From a virus, in the IMG/VR virus record IMGVR_UViG_3300046009_005620, positions 1 to 43,418 of that record: 43,418 nt of DNA; one strand, given 5' to 3'. The notes under the pieces were generated by a model. That model saw nothing but the letters and a program-made list of their open reading frames with translations, did not search any database and was not told the origin of the DNA. The translations under genes were made by a program, and so were the position numbers. Positions within the stretch are counted from its first letter, which is position 1; the number at the start of each line of letters is the position of its first letter. Positions 13,368 through 39,237 of the stretch are shown here, piece by piece.

Positions 13368-13952
13368 ATGAAAACAGTCGGAGATAAGTTAGGCTCATTC
13401 GCAGTGACTGGCGTCAAGCCGGGTAAGTTGACCCCAGATGATGCTTTTGAAACAATTACGGAAAACAGTTTTATTGGCAAGTGGAAGGTAATCGTATATT
13501 ACCCTAAGGATTTCACTTTTGTCTGCCCAACTGAAATTGTTGCTTATGACAAGTTGAACAAGGATTTCGCTGACCGTGATGCTGTATTATTGATCGGCTC
13601 AACAGACAATGAATTCTGTAAGTTGGCTTGGCGTAGTGCCCACGAAGATTTGAAGAAGACCAATAGCTGGATGTTTGCTGACACAGAACGCAGACATTAT
13701 GTTTATGAAAATGATGATGATTTTGGCACAGAAGTAGTTGGCCTAGTTGATCAGTTGGGTGTATTTTATAAGCCGGCTGGCGCAGCACTACGCGCAACTT
13801 TCATTGTTGACCCACAGAACGTCATTCAGCACGTTACTGTAAACAACTTGAATGTTGGTCGTAGCCCAGAAGAAACATTGCGCGTATTAGATGCTTGCCA
13901 AACAGGCGAACTATGCCCATGTAATCGCACTATCGGTGGCGAGACACTATAA
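13368..13952 (+). CDS. ahpC: Peroxiredoxin, AhpC family
   Basis: 194-residue 2-Cys peroxiredoxin that reduces hydrogen peroxide and organic hydroperoxides. Peroxidatic Cys53 sits in the family motif DFTFVCPTEI; the resolving Cys is in ELCPCNR near the C-terminus (Cys183 or 185). Thr50 and Arg (ALRATF) of the catalytic set are present. Strong ribosome-binding site and an exact late promoter upstream. The next gene, ahpD, overlaps by one base (TAATG), so the oxidase-reductase pair is co-expressed. Length and motifs are those of full, active bacterial AhpC. Auxiliary genes of this kind are rare in phages. Confidence 0.95.
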   Translation: MKTVGDKLGSFAVTGVKPGKLTPDDAFETITENSFIGKWKVIVYYPKDFTFVCPTEIVAYDKLNKDFADRDAVLLIGSTDNEFCKLAWRSAHEDLKKTNSWMFADTERRHYVYENDDDFGTEVVGLVDQLGVFYKPAGAALRATFIVDPQNVIQHVTVNNLNVGRSPEETLRVLDACQTGELCPCNRTIGGETL

Positions 13953-14479
13953 TGCGCGGCTGGGTAGAAATTATCAAGGACAGCGTTCCTGATCACAGCA
14001 AAGATATCAAACTAAATCTTGATGCTGTCATCAATCGCAGTCCATTGAGTGTAGAAGATACACATGCTTGTGCATTGACTGCGGCATTGGCGGCAGGTAA
14101 CGGTGAACTTGCATATGCTATCATGACTAGTGGCGAACTAGATAATTTTCAACCCGAAATGGAAGCGGCAAAAACTGCCGCTTCTCTCATGGGTATGAAC
14201 AATGCTTGGTATCCATTTGTTGAAATGTGTAACGACCCTGAACTAAAAGGATTACCTGCAGGATTGCGTATGAATGCTTATGCTACGCACGGTGGAGTAT
14301 CAAAGAAAAAGTTTGAACTCTATGCATTAGTAGCAAGTGCTATTGGCAAGTGCCACTTCTGTGTAAAAAATCACTATGATGTATTACGCAAAGAAGGCAT
14401 GAGTGTTCAAGAATTACATCATGCTGGCAAGATTGCTAGTGTAATCAATGCTATCGGTAAAATAGCCCCACCCTTGTAA
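13952..14479 (+). CDS. ahpD: Alkyl hydroperoxide reductase, AhpD family
   Basis: 175 residues. AhpD reduces AhpC, in mycobacteria with electrons from dihydrolipoamide and lipoamide dehydrogenase. The active-site set is visible: Glu122 (KKFELYALV), Cys134-x-x-Cys137 in KCHFCVKNH, and His141; helical repeats around them fit the all-alpha AhpD fold. In M. tuberculosis the motif is C-S-H-C; here it is C-H-F-C, moving the inner His by one position. ATG overlaps the ahpC stop. Together the two genes form a peroxide-detoxification module needing only host lipoamide or a thiol donor. Confidence 0.92.
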   Translation: MRGWVEIIKDSVPDHSKDIKLNLDAVINRSPLSVEDTHACALTAALAAGNGELAYAIMTSGELDNFQPEMEAAKTAASLMGMNNAWYPFVEMCNDPELKGLPAGLRMNAYATHGGVSKKKFELYALVASAIGKCHFCVKNHYDVLRKEGMSVQELHHAGKIASVINAIGKIAPPL

Positions 14480-18592: not shown

Positions 18593-18964
18593 ATGAGATT
18601 TTTGACAAGGAAGTTAGTCAAGCCAGGGGATCTGAATGCGAACAATACATTGTTTGGCGGACGCCTTATGGCTTGGGTTGACGAAGAGGCTGCGATCTAC
18701 GCTGCTATTGAGACAAGACATGAGAAGGTTGTAACTAAAAGTATTAGCGCCATCAATTTCATAGCCCCTGCTAAAAAGGGTGATGTTGTTGAAATTGGTG
18801 TAGCATTGAAACGTGTTGGTAAGACTAGTGTAACACTTGAAGTAAAAGTACGTAATCTAGTTACACAAAGTATTATCGTTGAAATTGATGAAATGGTTTT
18901 TGTATGCGTTGATGAAAACGGCAGACCAGTTCGTCATACATTAGGTAAAGCAAAGGGACAGTAA
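18593..18964 (+). CDS. Acyl-CoA thioesterase, YciA-like hotdog fold
   Basis: 123 residues. Hydrolyses acyl-CoA to free acid and CoA. The hotdog signature is clear: VKPGDLNANNTLFGGRLMAWVDEEAAIYA, with the Asn/Asp catalytic region (FGGxLMxWxDE), then KSISAINFIAPAKKGD and the strand VEIDEMVFVCVDENGRP. This matches YciA, which accepts a wide range of CoA esters and acts on membrane-related fatty acids. CGGAG precedes ATG 18593. The stop abuts tRNA-Ile with no spare base. A phage-borne metabolic gene that would affect lipid precursors, alongside the lipid-active genes at 24-26 kb. Confidence 0.9.
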   Translation: MRFLTRKLVKPGDLNANNTLFGGRLMAWVDEEAAIYAAIETRHEKVVTKSISAINFIAPAKKGDVVEIGVALKRVGKTSVTLEVKVRNLVTQSIIVEIDEMVFVCVDENGRPVRHTLGKAKGQ

Positions 18965-24338: not shown

Positions 24339-24365
24339 TAGCAAACTGTCGCACAGTGATATGCG

Positions 24366-24394
24366 GGCCCGCCCTAATACGGCGGGTCTTTTTT
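24366..24394 (+). terminator. Rho-independent terminator
   Basis: GGCCCGCC, six-base loop CTAATA, GGCGGGTC, then T6. Ends the membrane-protein transcript. Confidence 0.92.
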
Positions 24395-24431: not shown

Positions 24432-24439
24432 CGTAAATA
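24432..24439 (+). promoter_or_regulatory. Late-promoter-like box CGTAAATA
   Basis: Same box as at 24055-24062, 24 bases before GTG 24464; followed by AAGGAG. Confidence 0.4.
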
Positions 24440-24463
24440 TTTGCGAACACAAGGAGAACACTT

Positions 24464-25219
24464 GTGGAAACAAAAAACTATAAATCCATATTCATTTCTG
24501 ACGTACATTTAGGTAGCAAAGGTTGTAAAGCAGAAGTGCTTTGCGATTTTCTCAAACATCATACAAGTGAACACCTATATCTTGTAGGCGATATCATAGA
24601 TGGCTGGAGATTGAGGCGTAAGTATTATTGGCCACAATCTCACACCAATGTCATAAGAAGAATACTTACAGCAGCAAAGCGTGATACAAAAGTCACTTAT
24701 ATCGCTGGCAACCATGATGAAGCACTACGGAACCTATTACCATACGATGTGCATTTCGGTAATATTGATCTAGTCAATCAAACACGATACCAAGCATTGA
24801 ATGGAAAAACATATATGGTAATTCATGGCGATATGTTTGACACAGCATTACGCAATAAACTTGCTTGGCTATATCATTTTGGTGATTTTCTATATAATAT
24901 CTTGTTAAGCGTAAACGTAGTTGTTGCTAAAGTGCGTCAATGGTTCGGATTACCATATTGGAGCCTAAGCGCATATCTTAAAAATAAGACAAAAGAAGCG
25001 GTCGCGTATATGAGCGACTTTGAAGTATTGATCACTGATTATTGCCATAAGCAAAAAGCAGATGGTGTTATATGTGGTCATGTTCATAAACCTGCTATAA
25101 AAAAGATAGGCAACATTGAATATATGAACGACGGGGATTGGGTAGAGAGTTGTACTGCCCTCGTAGAAAAATATGATGGAGACTGGGAATTGATAGTATG
25201 GCAAGAACTAAGATCATAA
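24464..25219 (+). CDS. plcP: PlcP-like metallophosphoesterase (LpxH-type fold)
   Basis: 251 residues from GTG 24464 (ribosome-binding site AAGGAG). Complete calcineurin-type metal site: D13-x-H15 (SDVHLG), D43 (VGDIIDGW), N83-H84-D85 (AGNHDE), H121 (VIHGD), and H206-x-H208 (CGHVHKP). The overall pattern RRKYYWPQSH, GLPYWSLSAYLK and NDGDWVESCTALVE is that of PlcP (often annotated UDP-diacylglucosamine diphosphatase), a phospholipase C that removes phosphorylated headgroups from membrane phospholipids during phosphate limitation, leaving diacylglycerol. True LpxH is the alternative. The downstream glycosyltransferase overlaps it by 22 bases; in bacteria the plcP-agt pair has this order, which supports the PlcP reading. 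Assignment of substrate is inference. Confidence 0.8.
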   Translation: METKNYKSIFISDVHLGSKGCKAEVLCDFLKHHTSEHLYLVGDIIDGWRLRRKYYWPQSHTNVIRRILTAAKRDTKVTYIAGNHDEALRNLLPYDVHFGNIDLVNQTRYQALNGKTYMVIHGDMFDTALRNKLAWLYHFGDFLYNILLSVNVVVAKVRQWFGLPYWSLSAYLKNKTKEAVAYMSDFEVLITDYCHKQKADGVICGHVHKPAIKKIGNIEYMNDGDWVESCTALVEKYDGDWELIVWQELRS

Positions 25220-26211
25220 TCATCACTGATGCTTGGACACCACAAGTCAATGGTGTAGTAACTACATATACAAATATCGTCAAAAACTTACCAGAAGATG
25301 TAAGTGTAGATGTCATAGAACCAAGCCAGTTCAATGGATTCAATTTTCCATTTTACAAAGGTATAAAGATTAGTTTTTGTACTCGCTATAAAATGTATAA
25401 TCTGTTGAACGGCAAAACAGTATTTTATCAAAATCAAGGATATGAAGTCAGATATCATATTGCTACAGAAGGACCTTTAGGGCTCAAAGCAAAACTGATA
25501 TTAGACGAATGCAATAAGAATTATACTACTGCCTATCATACAAAGTTCCCTGAGTTCTTCAAGGCCATGTATGGTATACCGGAAAAATTTACACATTGGT
25601 ACTTTAGTTGGTTTCATAGTCATAGCACACAGGTCATGTGTAGCAGCGAAAGTAATGCTATAGAAAACAGAAACTGGAATAGTGTAGTATTAGATAAAGG
25701 TATTGACGATATATTTTTATTGAAAAAGAAAAAGTATAGCACACATAAAATCTTGTTATATGTAGGTCGCGTCAGCAAAGAAAAGAATATAGAAGATTTT
25801 TGCGAACTTGATATCATGAACACTACTAAGATTGTTGTAGGTGATGGACCATATCGCAAAATCCTACAGAAGAAATATACTGATGTTGAGTTTGTTGGTT
25901 ATAAATTTGGTTCAGAGTTAGCAGAATTTTATCGCAATAGTGATGTGCTTGTATTTCCAAGCAAGGTAGATACATATGGCATCGTCATGCTTGAAGCAAT
26001 GGCATCAGGTACACCATGTGCTGGATATAATGTGACTGGGCCTAAAGACCAAATAAAGAACGGTATAAATGGCTATGTAGATAATGACCTTGAACTCGCT
26101 GTTGAAATGTGTTTTGAGTTAGACAGAGAAACTGTTTATAATACCGTCAAACACAAGAATTGGAAAAACAGCAGTGAGCAATTCGTAAAATATACGACTA
26201 TTTCCCAATAA
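25198..26211 (+). CDS. agt: GT4 glycosyltransferase, Agt-like diacylglycerol glycosyltransferase
   Basis: 337 residues, overlapping plcP by 22 bases (ATG 25198). Two Rossmann domains: N-terminal IIITDAWTPQVNGVVTT with a Gly-Val-Val donor loop, HIATEGPLGL, AYHTKFPEF; C-terminal LLYVGRVSKEKNIEDF and the donor-binding VFPSKVDTYGIVMLEAMASG, which contains the GT4 E-x7-E-like motif. This layout matches the bacterial GT4 family that includes Agt, which transfers glucose or glucuronate from UDP-sugar to diacylglycerol, replacing phospholipid with glycolipid. The tight gene pair suggests that the phage carries both steps of lipid renovation. The sugar and acceptor cannot be read from the sequence. 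Confidence 0.82.
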   Translation: MARTKIIIITDAWTPQVNGVVTTYTNIVKNLPEDVSVDVIEPSQFNGFNFPFYKGIKISFCTRYKMYNLLNGKTVFYQNQGYEVRYHIATEGPLGLKAKLILDECNKNYTTAYHTKFPEFFKAMYGIPEKFTHWYFSWFHSHSTQVMCSSESNAIENRNWNSVVLDKGIDDIFLLKKKKYSTHKILLYVGRVSKEKNIEDFCELDIMNTTKIVVGDGPYRKILQKKYTDVEFVGYKFGSELAEFYRNSDVLVFPSKVDTYGIVMLEAMASGTPCAGYNVTGPKDQIKNGINGYVDNDLELAVEMCFELDRETVYNTVKHKNWKNSSEQFVKYTTISQ

Positions 26212-26376: not shown

Positions 26377-27336
26377 ATGCGTAAAGCACTTATAGCATTA
26401 GCTATGTTAGGATCACTTTCTGTTTCAGCAATGGCTGCTGATCTGAAGGTCAATGGTGGCTTCGGCTATCGTTTTGACAGTGAAGAAACAACAGTCAAGT
26501 CAGAAAAGGATAAGTTGAAGGCTGAATTGGTACTAGAATCAAAAGTCAACGACAAGGTAAAAGCAGTTGTTGGTTTGAGAACTGGTGGCTTCAATTCACC
26601 TTACAATGATTTTGATGCTGCTGGTTTAGAGAATGTTGATCTACACTTAGCATATGTTGAATATGCTGCATTGGATCATGTCAAGGTAAAACTTGGCAAG
26701 ATGCATCAACCTTGGGCAACTTCATCAAGTCTATTTTTTGACCGTGATGTCAAGCCAGAAGGTGTAGCAGTAGCATTTGACAATGGATCAGGCTTGTTCG
26801 CCAATCTTTCATCAGTAAAACTAGTTGAAGGTGGCGTAGCAGATGATTCAAAAGTTCAAAGCCTACAAGTCGGCTTGCACAAGAAGCTAGGTGGATTACA
26901 CCTAAAGGGCGCTGTAGCACTACATGATCATAAGATCGTTGGTGGAGCAGACGCTAAACTTCAGCAAGTATTCGGTGAAGTCGGTACAGCACTAGCTGGT
27001 AAGCCAGTAGTAGCATTTGTTGACTACATGAAGAACGATGAGGCAAAAACTGCCGATACAGCTTTAGCATACGGTGTCAAGTTTGGCAATGCAAAGAAAC
27101 CACAAGAGTGGGATCTAAGCGTATTCCATCAGGAAGTAGAAGCCAATGCACAGTATGGTCTATGGCATGACAGCGACTTTGCTGGCGGTCAGGGTAATCA
27201 CGAAGGTCTAGGCCTAGTTGCTGGTTATGTTGTAGCCGACGGTTGGAAAGTCAACGCTAAGTATTTCGATGTTGAGCGTGGAGCCAACAAAGCAGATTAC
27301 AAGCGTCTACAATTAGACTTGAACTACATGTTCTAA
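26377..27336 (+). CDS. Outer-membrane porin-like protein
   Basis: 319 residues. MRKALIALAMLGSLSVSAMA is a signal peptide cleaved before ADLKVNGG. The rest is alternating amphipathic beta strands with Gly/Asn turns and ends LDLNYMF, the terminal Phe expected for outer-membrane barrel proteins. Length and pattern resemble general bacterial porins (Porin_5 or related), with about 16 strands possible. Composition is more Lys-Gly-Val-rich than neighbouring genes, suggesting transfer from a host. It ends in a terminator. Phage PA-2 of E. coli also carries its own porin, which changes the receptors of its host; a similar role is inference here. Confidence 0.82.
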   Translation: MRKALIALAMLGSLSVSAMAADLKVNGGFGYRFDSEETTVKSEKDKLKAELVLESKVNDKVKAVVGLRTGGFNSPYNDFDAAGLENVDLHLAYVEYAALDHVKVKLGKMHQPWATSSSLFFDRDVKPEGVAVAFDNGSGLFANLSSVKLVEGGVADDSKVQSLQVGLHKKLGGLHLKGAVALHDHKIVGGADAKLQQVFGEVGTALAGKPVVAFVDYMKNDEAKTADTALAYGVKFGNAKKPQEWDLSVFHQEVEANAQYGLWHDSDFAGGQGNHEGLGLVAGYVVADGWKVNAKYFDVERGANKADYKRLQLDLNYMF

Positions 27337-38102: not shown

Positions 38103-38116
38103 AATCAATGACTTAC
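38103..38116 (-). repeat. Dispersed AATCAATGACTTAC motif
   Basis: Reverse-facing copy of the motif at 15917, 33183 and 36385. Lies at the end of the glycosyltransferase gene (its stop is at 38113-38115). Confidence 0.5.
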
Positions 38117-39237
38117 AGTGTAGGTAAGTCTCTACGTAGGTAATCGAGGGCAACTCTGTTGCTATTACGTTCGTACCAGCCTTTGCCCTCGTAAACGTTC
38201 AATACGTTTTGAAAATACTCTTCGTACATAGGGGCGACATTTTCTAAACTAAAGTTTTCACCGAACTTACGACAGTTAGCAGGCTTGATGTTACCGATAT
38301 TTTCAGTAGCCCAAACAAAATGATCAAACGTGCGACAACGATATCCTGTGTATCCGTGAATATTGTTCTCTGTGAAACTACCCCAGTCTGTTGTGATTGT
38401 AGGAGTACCACTCAATAACATTTCAATCTGTACGCCACCAAATGGTTCAATATACATACTAGGTACATAAGCACCTTTAGCATTTGCCATTAACTTCTTA
38501 CGTGTAGGCACATCAGCATAGCCTACAAATTCTACGTGTTTTGGAAAATGCATATCGTCAGGTTTTTGACCTGCGATAACTAAACGTTGACCTGCGGCTT
38601 CGCTTGCTTGTATTGCTACGTGAACACCTTTACCACTATACACACGACCTAAGAATAGCATGTAATCTTCTTTTTTGTCGTTATATTGGAAGTCATCTAA
38701 ATCAAAGTAGTTAGGTATGACGACATCATACCAATCACTCTTACAAGTTCCTACACCTTGCATACCATAATAGGCATGCATGATAGCATAACTCTCAAAG
38801 ATTTTCCAACGTGCCCAGTGACCACCTGCATATCCTATGCCTGGCTCAACAACTATCATATCGTTTTGATGTGCGTCACATACTTCACGAACTCCGCTAC
38901 CCCAAAATGGCAATATGAAATCGCCCTTCTGTTTACGTTTGCCTACCTCTACGATTGCGTTTTTAAAGAATGTTTGATATGCGTGATCTGATTTGTCAAA
39001 CTTAAAAAAGTTATTACGCCAATCATAATTTCCATATGCGATTTCTAAATCTTTATTAGTGATGACTGTAACATGCTCATCACAATCTAACACACTTTCT
39101 TCATGACCATAATGTATAATCTCATGACCGCGTGCCTTCATCATCTTACCAAATTTTACTACTTTTTGTGTATAGGCGCAGGCGTTATATTCTTTACTTG
39201 TAACTGTATGGGGAAGACCTAAAATGTGAAATCTCAT
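38113..39237 (-). CDS. GT4-family glycosyltransferase
   Basis: 374 residues, start at 39237. Rossmann pattern: [20 protein letters not shown] (acceptor domain), [36 protein letters not shown] (donor domain), and [21 protein letters not shown], the GT4 Glu-rich donor motif (EPFGGVQIE). Similar to phage glycosyltransferases near tail-fibre genes, which may modify the fibres, other virion proteins or host glycans. A hairpin at 39249-39280 separates it from the fibre gene. Confidence 0.88.

Follow-up and report, generated by a model that had tools for sequence, protein, structure and literature searches.

Why would a virus carry a metallophosphoesterase gene followed directly by a glycosyltransferase gene, in the arrangement of the bacterial plcP-agt operon? 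Two such genes lie in the stretch of DNA analysed here, a 43,418-base IMG/VR virus record (the window; Table 1). Phages carry phosphate-uptake genes, and we consider this pair to be a phage-borne plcP-agt operon that serves as a phosphate-economy cassette, with a probability of about 0.72. In the proposed mechanism, host phospholipids would lose their phosphate-bearing headgroups to the phosphoesterase during infection and become diacylglycerol, to which Agt would add a sugar from a nucleotide-sugar donor, probably UDP-glucose, so that membrane lipids would be retained and phosphorus released. Because PlcP releases phosphorylated headgroups rather than phosphate, host phosphatases would have to act on phosphoethanolamine or phosphoglycerol before the phosphorus could enter nucleotide and DNA synthesis; this counts against the reading. 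The closest parallel among phage-borne phosphate-stress genes is offered by cyanophage pstS and phoA under host PhoBR; control of pstS by this system sets a precedent for host regulation of phosphate genes in phages (PMC10976474), and the host PhoB regulator may also switch on the cassette described here. Cyanophage pstS and phoA act on the uptake of external phosphate, whereas plcP-agt would draw phosphorus out of the membrane lipid of the host itself, and in waters poor in phosphate infection would then be linked to lipid composition.

Table 1. Coordinates of the gene pair and adjoining features in the window
Feature	Position	Strand	Basis
Terminator-like hairpin with T run, directly before the pair	24365-24389	+	Consensus match only
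PlcP-type metallophosphoesterase, 251 aa, GTG start	24464-25219	+	ORF, PF00149, tree, motif
22-nt overlap of the phosphoesterase and transferase genes	25198-25219	+	ORF coordinates
Agt-type GT4 glycosyltransferase, 337 aa, ATG start	25198-26211	+	ORF, PF00534, tree, residues
Porin_5 outer-membrane porin	26377-27336	+	Profile match; neighbour cluster

Both ORFs are intact and overlap as the first-pass annotation had described; the phosphoesterase matched PF00149 with 41.7 bits (cut-off 21.5) and the transferase matched PF00534 with 79.3 bits (cut-off 26.4). The overlap suggests that the two genes are translationally coupled, and a transcript of their own probably begins with the pair because the terminator-like hairpin ends just upstream, 75 nt before the phosphoesterase GTG. 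Also encoded in the window are a tail-fibre-like protein, a ribonucleotide reductase, an endolysin and 29 tRNA genes. Several longer virus contigs with relatives of the pair carry a T4-type gp23 capsid gene, which indicates that the window comes from a large tailed phage and is not a stray bacterial fragment. An identical phosphoesterase was present on a second contig from another dataset (L002).

A scan returned 111 viral stretches with a phosphoesterase relative, from which 84 loci were retained after removal of overlaps, with near-identical contigs still among them. The gene directly downstream encoded Agt at 50 loci, a GT2 enzyme at 12 and PstS at 11; six had none of these and five ended too early to tell. 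Because the same kind of GT4 gene recurs in this position at 50 of the 84 loci, the two genes are not chance neighbours, and they overlap in 45 of the 50 pairs. Within one phosphoesterase subclade the downstream slot holds one Agt type (window and L003), another Agt type (L008 and L009) or GT2 (L004 and L006), and this mixed content suggests that the partner has been exchanged while a sugar-transferring function was kept. Bacterial plcP likewise precedes glycosyltransferase genes of several kinds (PMC4796936). No GT2 relative was found next to plcP in the bacterial loci that we examined. Values of dN/dS were 0.03-0.10 for the phage pairs that could be computed, consistent with purifying selection; comparison of the window with its relatives gave no value, with synonymous sites saturated. 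One contig (L071) carries two PlcP-type phosphoesterase and GT2 pairs approximately 5 kb apart (3-755/777-1499 and 5998-6738/6904-7614), and some phages have a gene for a TonB-dependent receptor immediately after that for the phosphoesterase or Agt (L049:6797-9301 and L024:7803-10319).

The bacterial operon, represented by PlcP of S. meliloti, PlcP and GTcp/Agt of SAR11 HTCC7211 and PA3219-PA3218 of P. aeruginosa, pairs the two families in this order too, commonly with an overlap or close to one, and has the same active-site residues; Pho-box-like sites are found upstream of bacterial plcP and of part of the phage genes alike. Unlike the bacterial genes, the phage second gene can be swapped for GT2, or be absent with PstS in its stead, and the phage copies appear as separate clades whose proteins are 32-50% identical to the bacterial ones.

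Phosphate genes recur around the phage phosphoesterase. A PstS-type phosphate-binding gene lies beside it at 15 of the 84 viral loci, in several arrangements, and in the isolated SAR11 phage Mosig the PstS and phosphoesterase genes are divergent neighbours; PstS is also encoded a few kilobases from plcP-agt in several SAR11 bacteria. The gene after PstS is commonly a Porin_5 gene, including in phage stretches without the phosphoesterase. Phage contigs L241-L249 have the PstS-porin pair and no phosphoesterase within the fetched stretch, so the pair looks like a phage module in its own right. The window porin shares a neighbour cluster with the PstS-linked porin of related phages and is a putative member of the cassette; its score against phosphate-selective porins was 18.2 bits, below the threshold of 20.9. 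PstS itself is absent from the 43-kb window fragment, which counts against the cassette reading.

Upstream regions were scanned with a degenerate Pho box, a direct repeat of YTGTMAY-N4-YTGTMAY matched at no fewer than 12 of 14 positions; this form was picked after the results of a strict scan (CTGTCAT-N4-CTGTCAT), which gave no overall signal. Degenerate repeats occurred upstream of the phosphoesterase in 19 of 61 distinct phage regions, all at -42 to -60, compared with 13 of 649 other phage genes (Fisher P = 5e-14 at 12 or more of 14, an exploratory value that is overstated by sequence relatedness). With clustering at 80% identity, 5 of 22 clusters had a site, and in a later check with the same degenerate form sites were found in 39 of 78 upstream regions of bacterial plcP. 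The best site near the start of the window gene matched 11 of 14 positions at -69 and is not distinguishable from background, which speaks against the cassette reading for the window copy. A phosphoesterase gene that keeps company with PstS and a porin, and that in relatives often stands behind a Pho-box-like site, appears to belong to a phosphate-economy cassette. We would give even odds to the broader proposal that many phages carry a modular, host-PhoB-responsive cassette (PlcP, an exchangeable Agt or GT2, PstS and a porin) that turns membrane phospholipid into glycolipid as a phosphorus reserve for virus production, and that some environmental viral 'lpxH' genes are PlcP.

The lipids might instead be remodelled for the sake of a changed envelope, through superinfection exclusion, tolerance of membrane stress or the timing of lysis, and not for phosphorus. 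Glycolipids alter membrane properties and are reported to have a protective role in P. aeruginosa (PMC8528852), the effects of lipid renovation on phage receptors are treated in a review (PMC9804370) and another GT4 gene is present in the window (38113-39237). We regard this as unlikely to be the selected benefit, since phosphate is what PstS, the PstS-linked porin and the Pho-box-like sites indicate; both benefits could hold at once. The first-pass annotation had offered both a phosphate and an envelope interpretation, citing a late-type box and nearby porin, EF-hand and thioesterase genes as an envelope programme. Its phosphate side gains from the PstS, porin and Pho-box associations in relatives. 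The late-type box (GTAAATA, 24433-24439) is not supported, RTAAATA being no more frequent in the window than expected (28 seen, 30.7 expected), and no EF-hand match was obtained among the window proteins scanned, which were part of the ORFs. The porin was borne out by its Porin_5 match, and a role in phosphate economy suits it no less than one in an envelope programme; the thioesterase is also there, as a 4HBT match at 18593-18964, approximately 5.5 kb away among tRNA genes.

The phosphate-economy reading depends on the identity of both enzymes. For the transferase, the best match in 14 of 16 bacterial genomes was a full-length Agt-type protein (35-42% identity), encoded directly behind plcP in nine of them; Agt-type proteins scored 173-235 bits, and other GT4 proteins scored at most 44 bits with partial matches only. 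In a quick tree search with SH-aLRT support only, phage and bacterial Agt were split from other GT4 enzymes at 95%, and the phage transferases formed a clade of their own. In line with the Agt partner proposed by the first-pass annotation, the window transferase groups with Agt on sequence, apart from other GT4 enzymes including LPS transferases. Its AlphaFold model (mean pLDDT 95) has GT4 enzymes such as MshA and BshA as the nearest solved folds.

Catalytic, donor-site and diacylglycerol-site residues have been mapped in SAR11 GTcp (PMC8231724), and the SAR11 proteins encoded next to plcP had all of them at the published positions. In the window transferase, the counterparts of catalytic H104 and D256 are kept (H114 and D258), as are the donor-site residues G19, G92, G95, R191, K196, T259, G261 and E266; F258 of GTcp is replaced by tyrosine, as it is in the P. 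aeruginosa Agt1-type protein. At the diacylglycerol site of GTcp (R163 and W320), the tryptophan is kept (W322) and the arginine is replaced by lysine. This replacement and the identity to bacterial Agt of only 32-42% count against the operon reading, though most phage relatives share the lysine and the Agt1-type protein of P. aeruginosa has it too. Agt1 makes glucosyl-diacylglycerol and uses UDP-glucose as its only donor (PMC8528852). It is quite improbable that the genes descend from plcP-agt and that the transferase, or both enzymes, came to use a different acceptor once in the phage, for instance protein, LPS or DNA. The separate phage clades, the identity to bacterial Agt of only 32-42% and the GT2 enzyme in the slot at 12 loci would fit such a shift, but the donor and diacylglycerol residues of GTcp are kept save for conservative changes shared with the P. 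aeruginosa protein, and the PlcP-type partner, the would-be supplier of diacylglycerol, is conserved.

In the phosphoesterase, D13, H15, D43, N83, H121, H206 and H208, assigned from the known calcineurin-type/LpxH motif, were invariant across an alignment of 59 phage and bacterial rows and make up a complete dinuclear metal site, as the first-pass annotation had read it. The protein is 45% identical to the PlcP-type protein of S. meliloti, 50% identical to that of P. aeruginosa (both identified by their gene neighbours) and 22% identical to E. coli LpxH. The S. meliloti gene adjoins those for an acyl-homoserine-lactone synthase and a LuxR regulator, a neighbourhood that we take to be the place of SMc00171, whose product was described as PlcP. 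In P. aeruginosa the match is followed by a glycosyltransferase gene and then cyaB, presumably the order PA3219-PA3218-PA3217. The products of PA3219 and PA3218 have been published as PlcP and Agt1 (PMC8528852).

Against the LpxH equivalog model, the window phosphoesterase scored 49 bits (cut-off 134); in ten bacterial genomes with both kinds of protein, true LpxH scored 202-294 bits and PlcP-type proteins 34-60. A profile of the phage phosphoesterases gave full-length bacterial PlcP-type proteins 308-396 bits and LpxH 44 or less. GNRD was present in all 11 LpxH sequences tested, and GNHD in the phage and PlcP-type sequences (one distant phage had GNHE). The phosphoesterase tree, a comparison suggested in the first-pass annotation and again a quick search with SH-aLRT support only, set LpxH apart at 100% and placed the phage proteins as a clade (99%) within the PlcP-type group, close to Campylobacterota and SAR11. 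Two sequences departed from this pattern: the distant copy of cyanophage S-SRM01, and one Hellea MAG sequence placed among the phages. The latter (L092:4986-5843) lies inside the phage clade (81%) on a contig with bacterial-looking neighbours and possibly reflects transfer between phage and cell. On these sequence comparisons, the window phosphoesterase is PlcP-type and not LpxH. That it hydrolyses UDP-diacylglucosamine as a true LpxH does, with the pair serving lipid A or LPS synthesis, is scarcely credible given this score, motif and tree: the annotation of its relatives as UDP-2,3-diacylglucosamine hydrolase/LpxH in public databases is a trap, because S. meliloti and P. aeruginosa have PlcP-type genes that bear the same label, and the LpxH folds nearest to its AlphaFold model (mean pLDDT 88) are an unspecific match, because no solved PlcP structure turned up. 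A PDB sequence search with the phosphoesterase gave no match.

The PlcP assignment suggests a re-reading of some viral genes filed as lpxH. Viral 'lpxH' auxiliary genes from seawater, Lake Baikal and Xanthomonas phage X1 have been read as serving LPS or cell-wall synthesis (PMC10653327, PMC9611531, PMC13384950), and their annotation label is the one borne by the window gene's relatives in Mosig and S-SRM01; phage X1 was not among the matches to the window protein in the phage collection. Those from surface seawater and Lake Baikal may partly be PlcP. No paper describing a phage plcP was found among the open-access papers searched, subscription papers and preprints being outside the scope of the search.

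Two further observations concern the window itself. The second GT4-type glycosyltransferase gene, on the minus strand, matched phrog_3408 with 646 bits; it adjoins tail-fibre-like genes and is unrelated to the Agt-type transferase. At 13368-14479 a gene for an AhpC-type peroxiredoxin adjoins one for an AhpD-like carboxymuconolactone decarboxylase, possibly a peroxide-defence pair in the phage.
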